Shown: piece by piece, positions 54,535 through 62,930 of the stretch | Numbering within the stretch: the stretch's first letter is position 1 | Layout: each line of letters starts with the position of its first letter | Assembly: GCF_024227435.1 (NCBI RefSeq) | Contig: NZ_CP100445.1 | Location: forward strand, 372,001-436,000 | Reading direction: 5' to 3' | Length of the DNA stretch: 64,000 nt | From: Natrinema caseinilyticum | GTDB lineage: Archaea > Halobacteriota > Halobacteria > Halobacteriales > Natrialbaceae | Translations under genes and position numbers: made by a program | The notes under the pieces: model-generated | What the model was told of the DNA's origin: nothing | What the model saw: the letters and a program-made list of their open reading frames with translations, nothing else | Database searches by the model: none

Positions 54535-55401
54535 TCAGTCGTACGTGAACAGCCGCACGTCGCAATCGGGACACACCAATTTCTCCGACGGCGTCGATCC
54601 CGGTGGGGTCACCTCGCCGCAGCAGGTCGTTCGTGAGACGGTCAGTTCGCCGTCGCAGCGTGGACACCGCTCGAGGAGCGACCGTAACGGCCGGCCGGCC
54701 ACACGGCGAACGTCCGCGTCGTCGATCCAGGCCCGAAGCGCGCGGGTGGCGGCGAGTTCAGCGACGACGACGGCTTCGTCGATCGAGACGCTGTGACCGG
54801 CCTCGACTTCGAGACGAACGGTCGTCGCGCGCCCACGCCAATCTCGACCGACGTGCGCATCGACCGACGCGTCCGTCAGCGCGTCCGCTTCGTCGGCGAG
54901 CCCCTCGAGGTCCAGGTCCCGGAGGCGGGTCATCTCTCGGCGCCACTCGGCTCGAAACGCGTCCTCGAGGAAGAACTCCTCGCCGTCGGGGACGACGATG
55001 CCCGCCTCGAGCAGCGCGGAGACGACGGCGTCGCCCGTCGGTCCGGCCGTCTCGCCGTCCCCGCCGGTCGCCAGCCCGGAGTCCGGTAGCGGTCCGTCGT
55101 CCCGGTCCGTGTGATCACCGTAGACGCCGAAATCGAACGGAACCACGGCGAGCAGTCGTGGGGCGAACCCGGGCGTGTAGGGCACGAGGTAGCCCCGTAG
55201 CCAGATCGCGACCGCACCGACGAGGGCGACCCCAGCGGCCACTCCCCGGCGACCGGCTATCGTCAGGATCGCGACGCCGATCGACAGCACGACCCCGTTA
55301 GTAACTGTACACGGCCAACACCGGTTGGCGCCGGTGTATTCCGCTCGTCGAATCCGCTGTCCGAAGCCGACCATGGGAGTTGGTTTCTGTTCATCCATCA
55401 T
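54535..55401 (-). CDS. Membrane zinc-ribbon protein of unknown function
   Basis: The 288-residue protein opens with QRIRRAEYTGANRCWPCTVTNG, a Cys-containing block followed by two hydrophobic helices (about residues 35-75). A mainly acidic, helical region follows, and the C-terminus has a zinc ribbon (CPRCDGELTVSRTTCC ... LVCPDCDVRLF). Proteins of this layout are common in haloarchaea, but I do not know their role. The start at 55401 lies 23-30 bases from a minus-strand TATA. Its promoter region also holds an operator-like motif. Confidence 0.7.
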   Translation of the reverse strand: MMDEQKPTPMVGFGQRIRRAEYTGANRCWPCTVTNGVVLSIGVAILTIAGRRGVAAGVALVGAVAIWLRGYLVPYTPGFAPRLLAVVPFDFGVYGDHTDRDDGPLPDSGLATGGDGETAGPTGDAVVSALLEAGIVVPDGEEFFLEDAFRAEWRREMTRLRDLDLEGLADEADALTDASVDAHVGRDWRGRATTVRLEVEAGHSVSIDEAVVVAELAATRALRAWIDDADVRRVAGRPLRSLLERCPRCDGELTVSRTTCCGEVTPPGSTPSEKLVCPDCDVRLFTYD

Positions 55402-55423
55402 GAATATGACCGCCACAGACACA

Positions 55424-55431
55424 CTTATTTA
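55424..55431 (-). promoter_or_regulatory. TATA box of the minus-strand zinc-ribbon gene
   Basis: On the minus strand the sequence reads AAATAAG, 23-30 bases upstream of the ATG at 55401. Confidence 0.5.
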
Positions 55432-55444
55432 CAACGGGTGTAAT
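55431..55444. promoter_or_regulatory. Operator-like motif in the trmB promoter region
   Basis: ACAACGGGTGTAAT shares 11 of 14 positions with the perfect inverted repeat ACAACGGCTGTTGT at 56823, and the match extends on both sides (16 of 21 positions). It touches the TATA of the minus-strand gene and lies upstream of trmB, so autoregulation is likely. Confidence 0.5.
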
Positions 55445-55591
55445 AATCAGTTGGAATGATGACTACCGGAACAGATAGTGGCCCACTATCGCCCCGCTCC
55501 GGTCGCGTTCAGTTCGTCCGTCGGTGGCAGACACGAGTGGACTCGCGAAAACGAGCTGAAACGATCCTCGAGCGACAGCGGGTGAGACGCG

Positions 55592-56668
55592 ATGGACGGT
55601 GACCAACTGGTCGAAATCCTCGAGGATGCGGGTCTCTCGCCGTATCAGGCGGACGCGTTCGTCACGCTGCTTGGGCTCGGATCGGCGTCGGCGACCGACA
55701 TCGCACAGGCCAGCGACGTCCCCGATCCGCGGATCTACGACGTGTTGCGGGGGTTAGAAGAGAAGGGGTACATCGAAACGTACGAGCAGGACAGCCTCCA
55801 CGCCCGCGCACACGATCCGGCGGACGTACTCGCCGACCTTCGGTCGCGGGCGAACAGATTCGAAACGGCGGCCGACGAAATCGAGGACCGATGGAGTCGG
55901 CCGGACATCGAAGAGCACAAGGTCAGCATCGTCAAGCGACTCGACACCGTACTGACCCGAGCCGACGAGTTGATCCGCTCGGCGACGAATCAGGTGCAGA
56001 TCGGACTGACCCCGGCGCAGTTTGACGACCTTTCGGACGCGCTTCGGACGGCCCACGAGTCGGGCGTCGACGTCAAGGTCTGTCTGTTCCCGATGACGAC
56101 TTCGAAACCGGACATTCCGTCCGCCGAGGTGCTGGCCAGCACCTGTACCGAAGCGCGGTACCGCACCCTCCCGTCACCTTTCGTGGCGCTCGTCGACCGT
56201 TCGTGGACCTGCTTTTCGCCACACGGCGACTCGACGAACGAGTACGGCGTCATCGTCAACGACCGAACGCATACGTACGTCTTCCACTGGTACTTCCTGA
56301 CCTGCCTCTGGGAGATTCACGACGTCATCTACTCGGCCCGAGACACCGATCCACCGATCACGTACGTGGATCTCCGGCAGTGTCTCCAGGACGTCGAACC
56401 GCTGCTCGGTGACGGGGCGAAGATAGAGGCCACCGTTCACGGGTTCGAAACGGATACGGGCCGCGAGATAACGCGTCGAGGGACGATTACAGACGTCACG
56501 TACGCGGGCCACGCGACGAACGACGTCCAGGAGACGCCGCTTTTCCACCTCGCGGGAAAGGCCTCGCTGACGCTCGAGACCGACGACGGGACGTACACCG
56601 TCGGCGGCTGGGGGGCGATGCTCGAGGACTACGAGGCGACGCGAATTACGATCGAATCGATAGACTGA
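55592..56668 (+). CDS. trmB: TrmB family sugar-responsive transcriptional regulator
   Basis: The 358-residue regulator has an N-terminal winged helix (residues 4-75, LSPYQADAFVTLLGLGSASATDIAQASDVPDPRIYDVLRGLEEKG) followed by a coiled-coil segment. A C-terminal sugar-binding domain contains VSIVKRLDTVLTRADELIRSA and VHGFETDTGREITRRGTI. It controls sugar transport and metabolism genes in archaea. It is upstream of, and on the same strand as, a sugar ABC transporter. An in-frame TGA nine bases upstream fixes the ATG; GGTGA before it is a plausible ribosome binding site, so the mRNA is leadered. Confidence 0.88.
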   Translation: MDGDQLVEILEDAGLSPYQADAFVTLLGLGSASATDIAQASDVPDPRIYDVLRGLEEKGYIETYEQDSLHARAHDPADVLADLRSRANRFETAADEIEDRWSRPDIEEHKVSIVKRLDTVLTRADELIRSATNQVQIGLTPAQFDDLSDALRTAHESGVDVKVCLFPMTTSKPDIPSAEVLASTCTEARYRTLPSPFVALVDRSWTCFSPHGDSTNEYGVIVNDRTHTYVFHWYFLTCLWEIHDVIYSARDTDPPITYVDLRQCLQDVEPLLGDGAKIEATVHGFETDTGREITRRGTITDVTYAGHATNDVQETPLFHLAGKASLTLETDDGTYTVGGWGAMLEDYEATRITIESID

Positions 56669-56822
56669 CCGCTCGCGATTTCGTTTCGGTCGATTCGGTG
56701 CAGTTCTGACGTCTTTCGTGACCGTTCCGATCAGTGCTACCGATCGAGTAGCGGCCGTTTCGCCACACAGCGGACGACTTCTCCGAGAAGTACCGGCAAT
56801 TATGACAGATGTGAAGTGATTA

Positions 56823-56836
56823 ACAACGGCTGTTGT
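56823..56836. promoter_or_regulatory. Operator-like inverted repeat upstream of the sugar transporter
   Basis: ACAAC-GGCT-GTTGT is a perfect inverted repeat ending 13 bases before the TATA box. An almost identical motif lies upstream of trmB (55431). A site upstream of the TATA/BRE fits an activator role. The known TrmB site in Halobacterium is different, so this is a prediction. Confidence 0.55.
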
Positions 56837-56849
56837 ACTCGATCCATTA

Positions 56850-56859
56850 ATTATATAAT
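56850..56859 (+). promoter_or_regulatory. TATA box of the sugar ABC transporter operon
   Basis: ATTATATAAT lies 24-33 bases before the ATG at 56883. This places the start at 56883 and not at the GTG at 56862. Confidence 0.6.
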
Positions 56860-56882: not shown

Positions 56883-58349
56883 ATGGGTGAGAGGCACTCG
56901 CACGGGAAGGCCGGTATCGACTCGAGCGTTTCGCGGCGAACGTTCGTCAAAGCAGCAGGTGCAAGCGGGACCGCGGTCGGTCTCGCGGGGTGTATTTACG
57001 GCAGTTCCTCGTCGGAAGGTGCTGTCGTCTGGGGGATCGGCCCGAACGTAGTGGAGGCGGTCGGAGACGAGGTCGTCGACCTCCTGACCGAAAACGGCGC
57101 GGACGGGGTCGACATCGAGCTCCAGCCCGGTGACGAAGACACGGGCGCCCGACGGGACACGTACACGAATCTGTTACAGGCTGGCGAAACGCAGCCAGAC
57201 CTCTTGTTGATGGACAACGGCTGGGTGAACGTCTTCATCCAGCGCGGTCACATCGCGAACCTGAGCGACGAACTCGACGATTCCGACCTGTCGACGATAC
57301 AGGACGAATACTTCGAGTCCTTTACAGCGACGGCTCGTGATCCCGGCTCCGGCGATCTGTTCGGGGTCCCGATCTTCCCCGACTACCCGACGATGCAGTA
57401 TCGCAAGGACTACGCGCGTGCGGCCGGCTACGGCGAGTCCGACTTCGAAACGTGGGCCACCGAGCCGATGACCTGGCAGGAGTGGGCCGAGATTACCCAG
57501 GAGATCGTCGCCGCCTCCGACGCGAGCTACGGGCTCGCGACCCAGTGGGACACGTACGAGGGAACGTCCTGCTGTACCTGGAACGAGGTCATGTCCTCGT
57601 TCGGCGGCGCGTACTTCGGCGGGCGCGACAACCTCTTCGGGCCGGTCGGCGATCGACCGGTGACCGTCGACGAACCGGAATTCGTCGAGGGACTCAAAAT
57701 GATGCGGACGTTCGTCGCCGACGAACACGGCGAGCACACGCTCGAAGAGTACCCCACCGGAATCGCCACCCCGGACATCACCTCGTGGGCGGAAGAGGAC
57801 GCCCGCAAGGCTATCCTCGACGGAAAGGCCGCGATGCAACGCAACTGGCCGTACGCGATCAGTATGAACGTCGATACGGCGGACGGTGCGCTCCCGGTCG
57901 AGGACTACGGCGCGATGCCGATTCCCTACGGGGTTACCAAAGACGATGCGAATCAGCCCGGAACCGGTGGCAGTACGTCCGCCCTGGGCGGCTGGCACGT
58001 CACCCTCAACCCGAACTCCCAGAACAAGGAGGACGCACTCGAGGTGATCCGCGCCGCGATGACCGACGAGTTCAACCTCGGAATGTTCGAACTCTACGGT
58101 TGGGTCCCGCCGAAACCGGCGCTGTTCGAGACGGAGAAGGCTGCACAGGTCGAGCCGATGGGGAACTACATGGAGACGCTCCGCGTCGCCGGTGAGAACG
58201 CGATGCCGCGTCCGGTGACGACGGTCTGGCCGAACGAGTCCACGCTCATCGCCGAGGAGGTAAACGGGGCGGTGGCCGGCGACAAGAGCCCCGATGCCGC
58301 GGCCGCGGATCTTCAGACCGGGCTGGAAGAGATCGAAGAGCAAGCATAA
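56883..58349 (+). CDS. Sugar ABC transporter substrate-binding lipoprotein
   Basis: The 488-residue extracellular binding protein starts with a Tat signal and lipobox: RR at residues 18-19 in VSRRTFVKAAG and Cys37 in VGLAGC. The mature part has the family-1 solute-binding fold, with LLTENGADGVDIELQPGDE, DLLLMDNGWVNVFI and a C-terminal GGWHVTLNPNSQNKEDALEVIRAA. It delivers a sugar, probably an oligosaccharide, to the permeases encoded next. Start chosen from the TATA position. Confidence 0.9.
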   Translation: MGERHSHGKAGIDSSVSRRTFVKAAGASGTAVGLAGCIYGSSSSEGAVVWGIGPNVVEAVGDEVVDLLTENGADGVDIELQPGDEDTGARRDTYTNLLQAGETQPDLLLMDNGWVNVFIQRGHIANLSDELDDSDLSTIQDEYFESFTATARDPGSGDLFGVPIFPDYPTMQYRKDYARAAGYGESDFETWATEPMTWQEWAEITQEIVAASDASYGLATQWDTYEGTSCCTWNEVMSSFGGAYFGGRDNLFGPVGDRPVTVDEPEFVEGLKMMRTFVADEHGEHTLEEYPTGIATPDITSWAEEDARKAILDGKAAMQRNWPYAISMNVDTADGALPVEDYGAMPIPYGVTKDDANQPGTGGSTSALGGWHVTLNPNSQNKEDALEVIRAAMTDEFNLGMFELYGWVPPKPALFETEKAAQVEPMGNYMETLRVAGENAMPRPVTTVWPNESTLIAEEVNGAVAGDKSPDAAAADLQTGLEEIEEQA

Positions 58350-58351
58350 GG

Positions 58352-59365
58352 ATGAGTACCGAAGATCGAACGTCCGGTCCGCTCGAGCGATCGAATCGAT
58401 CGGGCCCGATCGTCGCGGTCGCGCGCTGGATGGAAAACCTCGGCGAGACCGGGTTCGCCTACCTGCTGTTGACGCCGGTATTCGTCCTGTTGACAGTGAT
58501 CGCTCTGTATCCGCTGTTGCGAACGCTCGAGCTGTCGATGTTCCGGAACGTCCTGACGGATCCCGAATTCGTCGGACTCGAGAACTACATCCAGCTGTTC
58601 ACGGGTGGTGCGGACCCACGATTGCCCGGGTCGACGACGTTCTTGCCGAATATCAGCGTCGACGCGACCGCCCCGTTCGTCCACGTCGACGGTCTATTGC
58701 GGAGCGCGCTGGCGGTGACGCTCGTCTTCACCGCCGTGAGCGTCCTCTTCGAGACGCTCATCGGCTTCGGCCAGGCGCTCGTTCTCGATCAGGACTTCCG
58801 CGGCCGCCGATGGGTTCGCGCCGCGATCATCATCCCGTGGGCGATCCCGATCGTCGTTCAGGGGATGATCTTCTTCCTGATGTTCCATCCGACGGCCGGT
58901 TTCCTGACGGAACCGTTATCCGAGATCGGACTCGTCCAGGCGACCAATACCCTCAACGATCCGCAGAGTTCGCTGCTCATCATCACGGTCGCGGACATCT
59001 GGAAGACGTCCGCGTTCATGGCGTTGCTCATACTCGCCGGCCTCCAGAGCATCGACCGAAGCCTCTACGACGTGGCCGAAGTCGCCGGCGCCACCAGGTG
59101 GCAACGGTTCAAACTCGTCACGTTCCCGCTCGTGTTACCGACGCTCGGCATCGCGATCCTGTTCCGGACGATCGATGCCATGCGGATCTACGGCCTCATC
59201 GATTCGGTCTCGACCTGCTCGACGGTCCCGTCGCTTTCGTGTATGGTCGTCTCGACGTTCAACACGAGCAGGGGTCTCGCGTCCGCGATCGCGTTCGTCA
59301 CGGCCGGAATCATCGCCATCGCCGTACTCGGCGTGATCTACCAGCAGTACAAGGAGGGATTCTGA
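58352..59365 (+). CDS. Sugar ABC transporter permease (MalF-type)
   Basis: The 337-residue membrane protein has six helices. The conserved EAA-like loop that contacts the ATPase is VAEVAGATRWQRFKLVTFPLVLPTLG (about residues 240-265). It pairs with the permease encoded two bases after its stop. The start follows the binding-protein stop by two bases. Confidence 0.92.
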   Translation: MSTEDRTSGPLERSNRSGPIVAVARWMENLGETGFAYLLLTPVFVLLTVIALYPLLRTLELSMFRNVLTDPEFVGLENYIQLFTGGADPRLPGSTTFLPNISVDATAPFVHVDGLLRSALAVTLVFTAVSVLFETLIGFGQALVLDQDFRGRRWVRAAIIIPWAIPIVVQGMIFFLMFHPTAGFLTEPLSEIGLVQATNTLNDPQSSLLIITVADIWKTSAFMALLILAGLQSIDRSLYDVAEVAGATRWQRFKLVTFPLVLPTLGIAILFRTIDAMRIYGLIDSVSTCSTVPSLSCMVVSTFNTSRGLASAIAFVTAGIIAIAVLGVIYQQYKEGF

Positions 59366-59366
59366 A

Positions 59367-60383
59367 ATGGCGACACGGACCGATCGGACGGGGGGACCCG
59401 CGGACGACGAGAACGGGGGCCCCCTCGAGCGGTGGACCCGTAGCGTTATCACAGACGCGGAAAAACGCAGCCGCCTGTACAAGGCGTTGTTCTACGTCGC
59501 AGCGGGCTTTTTCCTCGTTACGACGCTGTTCCCGTTCTACTGGCTACTGGTGTTGGCACTGAAACCGAACGGGGACATCATCTCCGGCAGTTGGGCGCTT
59601 CCGATCGTCGGTGTCGAATTCCCGCACATCAATCCGCTGCAACCGGGCGAACCCAACGTCCTCGCCTTCGTCGAGGTGTTCCAGCAAGTGCCGTTCCATC
59701 TCTACGTGTTCAACAGCTTCGTGCTCGCGACGACCACGACGGTCATCGTCATCGTCCTCGCGAGCCTCGCGGGATACGTCTTCGGCCGACTCGAGTTCCC
59801 TGGACGCGGCGTGTTGATGCTCGCCATCCTGGCTATCTCGTACTTCCCGCCTGCAGCGTTCCTGATCCCGCTGTTCGACGCGTTCCTCGGCAACCCGGTG
59901 ACGGTGCCGTTTCTCGGCGTCGAGTTGTTCTCGCCGCCGCGGCTGGTCAACACGCCGAGCGCGATGATCATGCCCTTCAGCGCGCTGTTTCTGCCGCTGT
60001 CGATTTTCATCCTCACCACGTTCTATGCGCAGATTCCGGACGGTCTCGAGGATGCAGCACGGGTCGAGGGCACGACCCGGTTGGGTGCGCTGTTCCGCGT
60101 GATCATGCCGCTTTCGGCACCCGGTGTCGTGACGGCGGCCGTGCTGACGTTCATCTCGGTCTACAACGAGTACTTCTTCAGCTCGATCATGTCGCTCCAG
60201 AACGAACCCGAGCAGTGGTCACCGCTCGTCGGCGGCATTCTGAGCTATCAGACGCAGTACACGACAGACTTCAACCTGATGGCAGCAGCCAGCATCGTCG
60301 GCGTATTGCCCATGCTGATCGTCGTCATCGTCGCGCAGGAAAAGATCGTTAGCGGACTGACCGACGGAGCACTCAAAGAATAA
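59367..60383 (+). CDS. Sugar ABC transporter permease (MalG-type)
   Basis: The 338-residue membrane protein has six helices and a EAA-like loop as LEDAARVEGTTRLGALFRVIMPLSAPG (about residues 225-250). A polar, acidic N-terminal stretch of 40 residues precedes the first helix. With the previous permease it forms the transmembrane pore for sugar uptake. Confidence 0.92.
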   Translation: MATRTDRTGGPADDENGGPLERWTRSVITDAEKRSRLYKALFYVAAGFFLVTTLFPFYWLLVLALKPNGDIISGSWALPIVGVEFPHINPLQPGEPNVLAFVEVFQQVPFHLYVFNSFVLATTTTVIVIVLASLAGYVFGRLEFPGRGVLMLAILAISYFPPAAFLIPLFDAFLGNPVTVPFLGVELFSPPRLVNTPSAMIMPFSALFLPLSIFILTTFYAQIPDGLEDAARVEGTTRLGALFRVIMPLSAPGVVTAAVLTFISVYNEYFFSSIMSLQNEPEQWSPLVGGILSYQTQYTTDFNLMAAASIVGVLPMLIVVIVAQEKIVSGLTDGALKE

Positions 60384-60385
60384 CA

Positions 60386-61606
60386 ATGGCACGAGTACGA
60401 CTTGACAACGTTACGAAACGGTACGAAGACATCGTCGCCGTCGACGATATGAACCTCGAGATCGAGGACGGCGAATTCGTCTGCCTCGTCGGGCCCTCGG
60501 GCTGTGGGAAGTCGACGACGATGGAGACGATCGCCGGCCTCACCAAACCGACAGAGGGGACGATCCACATCGGCGAGACGGACGTCACCTCCTTTCCCCC
60601 GAAGGATCGAGGCGTCGCGATGGTGTTCCAGAACATCGCGTTGTTCCCACACATGGACGTCTTCGACAACATCTCGTTCGGGCTGCGCCTTCGGAAGTAC
60701 GACGACGAGGAGATAGAGCGGCGCGTCGAACGCGCCTCGGACGTCGTTCAACTCGAGGGGATGCTCGATCGGATGCCGGACGAACTGTCCGGAGGCCAGC
60801 AACAGCGGGTGGCGATCGCCCGCGCCATCGTTCGGGAACCGGCCGTCTTCCTGATGGACGAACCGCTGGCGAACCTGGACGCGAAATTGCGCGTTCACAT
60901 GCGAACCGAACTCCAGCGACTGCACAAGCAACTCGACACGACGATCATCTACGTCACGCACGATCAGGCGGAGGCGATGACCATGTCGGATCGGATCGCC
61001 GTCATCGACAGCGGTGAACTCCAGCAGATCGATCCGCCGTTGACCTGCTACAACGAGCCGGCAAACCGGTTCGTCGCCGGCTTCATCGGTTCACCGTCGA
61101 TGAACTTCGTCGACGGCGAACTGAGCGAGGACGGCCTCGAGACCGATCACTTCGACCTCGCGTTCGATCCGGACCCGCTCGAGGCCGCTCCCGGGGACGC
61201 CGTCACGATGGGGATTCGTCCCGAGGATATCTACCCTGCGGCCGACGCCGACTCGTCGACCGCTACGTCGTCGGTCATCGAGGCGACGACCGACGTTCTC
61301 GAACCGATGGGTGACGAGATATTCGTGTATCTCACGCTCGACGGCTCGGGGGGACAGCTGATGACGAGCGAAGAGGCGTCGGCTGCGTCGAATCAGCTGT
61401 TGATGAGCGTCGCGCCGGATTCGGCCATCGACGAAGACGAACAGGTGAGCGTCGTGCTCGATCGGTCGAAGGTCCACCTGTTCGAGACCGCATCGGGCGA
61501 TGCCATCGCACACGGTGTCGAAGGGCCCCCGGATTCGACTGCGGAGTCGGATGCGGTGGCGGAGAACGTCCGAGCCGAAGTCGATCCCGGAGGGGGCGAT
61601 GAGTGA
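60386..61606 (+). CDS. Sugar ABC transporter ATP-binding protein (MalK/UgpC-type)
   Basis: The 406-residue ATPase has Walker A GPSGCGKSTT (residues 38-47), the signature LSGGQQQRVAIARAI, Walker B VFLMDEPLANLD and the switch His in YVTHDQAE. A C-terminal TOBE/OB domain (about 240 onward) could bind a regulator or enzyme IIA-like partner. It powers sugar uptake by the preceding genes. The last eight bases overlap the next small gene. Confidence 0.93.
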   Translation: MARVRLDNVTKRYEDIVAVDDMNLEIEDGEFVCLVGPSGCGKSTTMETIAGLTKPTEGTIHIGETDVTSFPPKDRGVAMVFQNIALFPHMDVFDNISFGLRLRKYDDEEIERRVERASDVVQLEGMLDRMPDELSGGQQQRVAIARAIVREPAVFLMDEPLANLDAKLRVHMRTELQRLHKQLDTTIIYVTHDQAEAMTMSDRIAVIDSGELQQIDPPLTCYNEPANRFVAGFIGSPSMNFVDGELSEDGLETDHFDLAFDPDPLEAAPGDAVTMGIRPEDIYPAADADSSTATSSVIEATTDVLEPMGDEIFVYLTLDGSGGQLMTSEEASAASNQLLMSVAPDSAIDEDEQVSVVLDRSKVHLFETASGDAIAHGVEGPPDSTAESDAVAENVRAEVDPGGGDE

Positions 61607-61853: not shown

Positions 61854-62930
61854 ATGAGCGGCGACTACGCGCCCGTTCGAACGGGCATCGTCGGACTCGG
61901 TAACATCGGGCACCACCACGCCGACCGTCTCGTCGACCTCGGTGTCCCCCTCGAGGGGGGCATGGACATCGACCACGAAGCGCGCACTGAGTTCGCCGAT
62001 CGGTACGACGTCGACGTCTACGACGACTACCACAGTCTCTACGACGAAATCGACGCCGTCGTTATAACGACACCGAACAAGTACCACGAGGAGTACGCCG
62101 TCGCCGCCCTCGAACGCGACTGCCACGTCCTGCTCGAGAAGCCGCTCGCGCACACGGTCGAGAGCGCTCGCCGGATCGCCGACGCGGCGTCGGCGTCGGC
62201 GGGGACGTTCCAGATCGGATTCAACAATCGGTTTCTGAACGCTGTTCAGATCATCAAGGATCGGATCGAACGCGGCGACTTCGGGGACCTCACTCACGTC
62301 GAGGCGAACTACGTCCGTCGGCGCGGCGTCCCCGGCCGCGGTTCGTGGTTCACCCGTCGGGAGGTATCGGGTGGCGGTTCGCTCATCGACCTCGGCGTTC
62401 ACGCGATCGACCTCTCGATGTACTTGCTCGGCTATCCGGACGTCGAGGAAGTTTCGGGGGTGACGCGTTCGAGCTTCGGCGACCGGGACGACTACGCCTA
62501 TCTCGAGATGTGGGGCGCTGACAGCGGCCCGGACGGGTTCGACGTCGACGATTCGGCGAGCGCGTTCATCCGGTGTACGGGGGGACACACGGTCTCCCTC
62601 GAGGTGGCCTGGGCGACCAATCGACCGCCGACGCACGAATTCGTCGTCCGCGGAACCGAGGCGGCCGCACGATTCGATCTACTGGAGGGTGATCTGACGA
62701 TCCACTCGGCGAGCGCCGACGGGCCGGATCACCTGCTCGATACCGCCGTCGAGGTCCGCGAGAACGACACCCACGCCGACGAACAACGGGCGTTTTTCGA
62801 CGCGGTCACGACCAGCCGCGATACCTGCGGTTCCATCGACGACGCGGTCACGGTCCAGGAAATTATCGATGCCATCTACCGCTCGAGTGAGGGCGGCCAC
62901 ACCGTGGTATTCGACGAATCAGTTCCGTGA
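61854..62930 (+). CDS. Gfo/Idh/MocA-family oxidoreductase
   Basis: The 358-residue NAD(P)-dependent sugar dehydrogenase has GIVGLGNIGHHHADRL (Rossmann motif near residue 11) and the EKPLAHT motif (catalytic Lys), followed by FQIGFNNRFLNA and GGGSLIDLGVHAIDLSMYL. Members oxidise inositol, sugars or sugar derivatives. It follows the transporter operon by 51 bases on the same strand and probably acts on the imported sugar or its product. Substrate unknown. Confidence 0.9.
   Translation: MSGDYAPVRTGIVGLGNIGHHHADRLVDLGVPLEGGMDIDHEARTEFADRYDVDVYDDYHSLYDEIDAVVITTPNKYHEEYAVAALERDCHVLLEKPLAHTVESARRIADAASASAGTFQIGFNNRFLNAVQIIKDRIERGDFGDLTHVEANYVRRRGVPGRGSWFTRREVSGGGSLIDLGVHAIDLSMYLLGYPDVEEVSGVTRSSFGDRDDYAYLEMWGADSGPDGFDVDDSASAFIRCTGGHTVSLEVAWATNRPPTHEFVVRGTEAAARFDLLEGDLTIHSASADGPDHLLDTAVEVRENDTHADEQRAFFDAVTTSRDTCGSIDDAVTVQEIIDAIYRSSEGGHTVVFDESVP

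Follow-up and report, generated by a model that had tools for sequence, protein, structure and literature searches.

Within the 4.77-Mb genome of Natrinema caseinilyticum, we analysed a stretch of 64,000 nucleotides (contig NZ_CP100445.1, positions 372,001 to 436,000; hereafter the window), in which a gene for a TrmB-family regulator precedes an ABC transporter operon (Table 1). The regulator combines an N-terminal winged helix (PF01978, 57.2 bits at a cut-off of 25.6) with a C-terminal sugar-binding domain (PF11495, 197 bits at a cut-off of 22.2). The gene diverging from trmB, described as a zinc ribbon in an earlier note on this DNA, gave no Pfam match. For the solute-binding protein, the mechanical open reading frame begins at a GTG (56862); an ATG at +60 from the box described below is conserved, and we infer a leaderless start there. 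Beyond the window end follow an AP_endonuc_2 protein (sugar isomerase/epimerase-like) and a Gfo/Idh/MocA protein, the latter closest to the levoglucosan dehydrogenase model, albeit below its cut-off (332 of 650 bits).

The earlier note had reported a 14-bp motif in both promoters of this locus, and its coordinates for the two copies proved correct. The copy at the ABC operon, ACAACGGCTGTTGT, had been called a perfect inverted repeat, which is true of its 5-bp arms, ACAAC and GTTGT, and of the innermost G-C pair, but not of the central positions 6 and 9 (G and T), which form a mismatched pair. The near copy claimed for the trmB divergent region, ACAACGGGTGTAAT, is indeed present and identical to it at 11 of 14 positions, but constitutes the weaker site; in several close relatives it takes the form ACAACGGGTGTTAT. 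A third box, ACAACACCTATTGT, starts 26 bp 5' of the ATG of the levoglucosan-dehydrogenase-like gene. Copies occupy the same place in Natrinema relatives, with one arm mismatch in four genomes (G004, G016, G017, G022) and two in G018 and G395; none was found within the stretch examined for G387.

Table 1. Genes and predicted regulatory elements of the trmB-ABC cluster (window coordinates)
Feature	Position	Strand	Remarks
Divergent gene	54535-55422	-	zinc ribbon according to the earlier note; neighbour of trmB at the majority of loci in the window's family
T-rich TATA-like element CTTATTT	55424-55430	+	immediately 5' of trmB-side box; CTTTTTT in relatives
trmB-side box (weaker) ACAACGGGTGTAAT	55431-55444		trmB promoter / divergent region; two mismatches to arms
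Leader ORF	55456-55602	+	48 codons; start codon 25 nt past box start; overlaps trmB start by 11 nt
TrmB-family regulator, TrmB3-type paralogue	55592-56668	+	PF01978 winged helix and PF11495 sugar-binding domain
Extended conserved form TTAAC...GTTGTA	56820-56837		covers ABC-operon box
ABC-operon TrmB box ACAACGGCTGTTGT	56823-56836		predicted from sequence and conservation
TATA-like element TTATATAA of ABC operon	56851-56858	+	14 bp past box; relatives A/T-rich there (TTATAAATA)
ABC solute-binding protein (SBP_bac_1)	56883-58349	+	TAT signal model TIGR01409, 20.1 bits (cut-off 16.7)
ABC permease 1 (BPD_transp_1)	58352-59365	+
ABC permease 2	59367-60383	+	named by operon place and conserved order of homologues
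ABC ATPase (MalK/UgpC type)	60386-61606	+
Gfo/Idh/MocA oxidoreductase	61854-62930	+	probable member of the same cluster
Third box ACAACACCTATTGT	64270-64283		C1:436270-436283 (L146:2271-2284); 270 bp beyond window end

Recurrence of the box across haloarchaea

We compared 92 TrmB loci, of which 6 came from a search of the genus (29 genomes), 26 from a search of the class (391 genomes), and 60 were picked by hand, among the matches listed, for their spread over genera; all counts include related genomes and hence do not represent independent events. In 52 loci a solute-binding gene directly follows trmB, and every one of these has, no more than 500 bp downstream of trmB, a box with at most one mismatch, against none of the other 40. 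By chance, 0.65 of the 52 would be expected on average, and 3 at most (40 first-order Markov randomisations of the same 52 stretches). In all 52 cases, an open frame has its start codon 56-65 bp past the box start. Clustering at 80% identity reduced the loci to 39 distinct rows. Since the arms served to find the sites, their conservation is partly circular, but this does not apply to the geometry, to the class-wide scan, or to columns in the flanks and centre that had no part in the picking: T at -3 (36/39), T at -2 (36/39), A at 15 (34/39) and C at 8 (35/39). Further out, positions -15 to -5 of these rows are not conserved.

A second set of 77 loci, drawn from 91 pattern stretches and comprising in part the same organisms (the overlap was not removed), behaved similarly. 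With a solute-binding gene within 700 bp (n = 41), the arms were exact in 12 loci, had one mismatch in 27 and two in 2; among 13 loci whose stretches lack such a gene, L308 alone had a box within 500 bp downstream of trmB. When the transporter is encoded on the opposite strand, mostly in Halorubrum, ACAACNNNTGTAAT-like forms that resemble the window's trmB-side copy predominate; two mismatches were counted in 9 of 13 such loci. Two-mismatch boxes occur at L127/L272, L243, L244 and L298-L300. The trmB-side site is less widespread: within two mismatches and with an ATG at +24 to +26 it is found in only 29 of the 92 loci, and L005, from the same genus, has no clear one. As a separate observation, nine loci (L105, L116, L119, L120, L123, L126, L129, L135, L139) encode TrmBs with the sequences GLSQYQ and VPxARIYDV and have no box near trmB; downstream of trmB in several of them, a AGAGGTATTTTGATAT-like element is conserved, which may be a promoter or operator element of another kind.

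The presence of the box tracks the regulator rather than the transporter. With 1-3 kb between trmB and the transporter, the latter retains a box within one mismatch at L092, L112, L138 and L140 and one with two mismatches at L127; at L102/L246, apparently one organism, the distance to trmB is 2.5 kb and a good box is lacking (3 mismatches). Even where the two are about 135 kb apart (G069) or on different contigs (G267), the transporter keeps exact arms. We further considered 23 solute-binding homologues whose stretches contain no trmB of this kind, 4 from earlier loci and 19 of 20 picked (L337 was left out). No box was present at 13 of them (3-4 mismatches), 3 had two mismatches, and 7 were within one; the genomes of these seven all encode a TrmB of this kind elsewhere. 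Conversely, G264 and G333 gave no TrmB match at 1e-65, and their solute-binding homologues are not preceded by a box. Two TrmB paralogues of about 45% identity (L316:7102, L317:5071) are convergent with an MFS transporter gene, the promoter of which contains an exact box.

Scanned as a whole, as the earlier note had proposed, the genome of N. caseinilyticum contains ACAACNNNNGTTGT once, but a reversed control pattern also once, so that rarity by itself proves little. With up to two mismatches, ACAACGGSTGTWRT yielded 44+47 matches against 28+40 for the control, which is hardly any enrichment, and most one-mismatch matches fall in coding sequence; the data therefore give no hint of a large regulon here. 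One intergenic match before an MFS gene (L034, C1:1640159) is a weak candidate site only. An enumeration of exact palindromes that presupposed no motif gave ACAAC-N4 a high rank, but stretches common to close relatives dominated its output, and it was superseded by the comparison of the 52 and 40 loci and by the class-wide scan.

In 391 haloarchaeal genomes, TTWACWACRNNYGTTGTA had 62 matches in 58 genomes, compared to 2 among the matches listed for the reversed control. Solute-binding genes are preceded by 38 of the 62: 31 as judged by position, 6 by tblastn (L361-L364, L368, L369), and the match in G374, which is locus L079. Another 14, from Haloarcula-type genomes, are followed at 57-60 bp by a GH13 glycosidase gene unlinked to trmB (L343, L346-L351, L353-L358, L374); Pfam confirmed the assignment on two of these, and the nearest NCBIfam models are phosphotrehalase-like. 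Two more (G069, G267) are at an ORF with a GH13 match, of 631 aa according to L371, the one locus from which its length was taken. The box thus precedes or flanks sugar uptake or glycosidase genes (solute-binding or GH13) in 54 cases. The remaining eight (G050, G042, G225, G377, G313, G309, G157, G055) are unassigned; in two of these genomes, G042 and G225, the match is close to the zinc-ribbon gene that lies upstream of trmB. Far from being frequent and randomly placed, which would have spoken against the earlier note, the motif is rare and concentrated before sugar uptake and glycosidase genes across the class. Two side observations concern single loci: at L351, a gene resembling the levoglucosan-dehydrogenase-like one is found near the box-bearing GH13 gene, and in G395 ACAACATGTGTTGT precedes a GH68 levansucrase/invertase gene (L315:3756, C1:2341755).

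Placement of the box and proposed direction of regulation

The palindrome recurs in the same place wherever the gene of this regulator is present, so it very probably is the binding site of this particular TrmB. As the best explanation of the comparative data, we consider ACAAC-N4-GTTGT to be, in all likelihood, the operator used by the product of the adjacent trmB gene. The link between TrmB and the transporter operon drawn in the earlier note from the shared box has strong comparative support, from the 52 of 52 loci as well as from the class scan.

In the proposed mechanism, a TrmB dimer would bind both half sites via its winged helices. At the ABC operon, it would sit just upstream of BRE/TATA, where about 53 bp separate the box centre from the start codon; at the trmB promoter and the sugar-dehydrogenase gene, its place would be downstream of the TATA-like element but still ahead of the start codon. 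The two geometries are distinct: at the operon, the box end is followed after ~14 bp by the TATA-like element and after another ~28 bp by the conserved ATG, a TATA-to-ATG spacing consistent with that expected for a leaderless haloarchaeal transcript, while at trmB the box directly follows the T-rich element, and 10-12 bp separate its end from an ATG. According to a review (PMC4158304), activation from sites upstream of BRE/TATA and repression from sites downstream of it are the rule for TrmBL1, Tgr and Halobacterium TrmB, and Pyrococcus TrmB represses from BRE/TATA itself. By analogy with this positional rule, the placement of the boxes relative to TATA favours activation of the importer and repression of trmB and the dehydrogenase gene, with activation of the importer being somewhat the better bet.

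A serious competitor, to which we attach somewhat less weight, is that the same TrmB represses the ABC operon as well, its footprint reaching BRE and blocking TFB/TBP, and that the transported sugar lifts repression everywhere, as for Pyrococcus TrmB at malE. With the box ending ~14 bp before the TATA-like element, the footprint of a dimer could indeed extend to BRE, and joint induction of importer and enzymes by their substrate would be the simpler physiology. However, all 52 loci have the box at a fixed place ahead of the TATA-like element, in clear contrast to the trmB-side and dehydrogenase sites, which is what the rule for activators and repressors predicts. As for the ligand, the nature of the targets (GH13, dehydrogenase) hints at alpha-glucosides or related oligosaccharides.

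The ATG after the trmB-side box opens a short leader ORF. In the window and 28 related loci, it starts 24-26 nt past the start of the box and, in 27 of the 29, has its end between -10 and +20 nt relative to the trmB start, compared to 5 and 6 of 29 for the other two frames. Its length ranges from about 11 to 86 codons, its peptide sequence is not conserved, and its frame differs between loci. Because the end is kept near the trmB start while length, peptide and frame vary, translation of trmB is likely coupled to this leaderless leader ORF.

Identity of the regulator and related systems

Haloarchaeal genomes carry several TrmB paralogues. On NF047392, the equivalog model of Halobacterium TrmB, the window protein scores 169.8 bits, far below the cut-off of 500, and the same genome encodes a separate TrmBHalo equivalog with 577 bits (C1:219241-220221). 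Judged by sequence, the window TrmB is a paralogue, not an orthologue, of Halobacterium TrmB. Given the separate TrmBHalo, the box would reflect the specificity of the paralogue and not a changed specificity of the known TrmB. The new TrmB specificity suggested in the earlier note thus stands as far as a distinct box is concerned, for which the comparative support is strong, but it belongs to a paralogue and not to an altered version of the known protein. We also looked for residues of the recognition helix that might account for it and abandoned the attempt: motif-bearing TrmBs vary (D/K/Q/R and P/A before RIYDV) and TrmBHalo, too, has QPR, for which reason we claim no residue rule for specificity.

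Gene order points in the same direction. The sequence of trmB, box, ABC operon and TrmBHalo is found in all three Haloarcula-type stretches (L309-L311; so named since a query protein from one such genome is 94-97% identical to Haloarcula proteins), while TrmBHalo lies away from the trmB-ABC cluster in the window's own genome; Haloarcula vallismortis was among the relatives found in the pattern-stretch search. In Haloarcula hispanica, HAH_1557 (trmB3) precedes the ABC operon and HAH_1548 is at the other end; in the accessible part of the report on the latter (TrmBHar), ChIP-seq yielded 15 peaks, none of which names a gene from HAH_1549 to HAH_1557, peak 3 being intergenic with no named gene (PMC10817205). 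From the low NF047392 score, the separate TrmBHalo, the gene order and HAH_1548 peaks that do not name the ABC operon, we conclude that the window's regulator is TrmB3 with its own predicted operator, gene order making it a probable orthologue of HAH_1557.

It is improbable that the box serves another regulator, for example the gluconeogenesis TrmB (TrmBHalo), as its operator and that the nearness of the box to this trmB is secondary. While TrmBHalo adjoins the far end of the cluster in Haloarcula-type genomes and has much of the same recognition helix, its known site, TACT-N7-8-GAGTA, has no match in or near the trmB-ABC cluster among the matches listed for this genome, which also bears out the earlier note in that the box differs from the TACT/GAGTA type. 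Moreover, the 15 tabulated HAH_1548 peaks bypass the named genes of the operon, as far as the accessible text goes (PMC10817205), and the box accompanies the ~45% identical paralogues with their MFS gene, yet is absent before the solute-binding homologues of G264 and G333, which have no close relative of this TrmB. At L318 (G124:C7), the ABC operon adjoins TrmBHalo with no TrmB3 in the stretch, and the box is decayed in one arm (TCGACACCTGTTGT), possibly a trace of regulator loss. Finally, a constitutive promoter element or chance similarity, to which the agreement of the window's copies at only 11 of 14 positions and the scant enrichment of relaxed forms in its genome might point, is hardly credible in view of conservation at a fixed distance, 62 matches against 2 with nearly all targets being sugar genes, and 39 clusters still distinct at 80% identity.

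We tentatively propose a more comprehensive picture, which as a whole is possible rather than probable: a clade of TrmB paralogues, distinct from the gluconeogenic TrmB, would have its own haloarchaea-wide operator and a small oligosaccharide regulon, consisting of the ABC importer, dehydrogenases, the unlinked GH13 glycosidase and, in some lineages, an MFS transporter; the same box would activate uptake from upstream of TATA and, from downstream, repress the regulator itself and the catabolic enzyme, with trmB coupled to the leaderless leader ORF. In the accessible literature, a mapped site was found only for the gluconeogenic one among the haloarchaeal TrmB paralogues; our search of it recognised no report of an ACAAC-N4-GTTGT site or a HAH_1557 binding site, and HAH_1557 was named in one paper only. 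With our results, a second and widespread TrmB clade has a predicted operator and a list of targets across the class, open to cheap direct tests in tractable hosts such as Haloarcula, and the archaeal rule that position decides the sign becomes testable with one regulator, one box and one locus.

Among known systems, the closest is TrmB3 of Haloarcula hispanica (HAH_1557): the Haloarcula-type orthologue is 57-58% identical to the window protein and precedes the same ABC operon, with TrmBHalo at the opposite end, but the paper, in its accessible part, studied HAH_1548 and reports no HAH_1557 site (PMC10817205). Halobacterium salinarum TrmB (VNG1451C) has the same two-domain architecture, and the position of its site relative to TATA sets activation or repression (PMC4158304); it is, however, a different paralogue, and its TACT-N7-8-GAGTA site differs from the window box. 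The Thermococcales TrmB and TrmBL1/Tgr are likewise sugar-gene regulators, in part encoded beside a sugar ABC operon, with a palindromic operator and a positional rule, but their operators, TACT-N3-AGTA for TrmB and TATCAC-N5-GTGATA for TrmBL1/Tgr, as given in the review, are unrelated to the window box (PMC4158304). The box ACAAC-N4-GTTGT is very probably a site different from those known for other members of the TrmB family.
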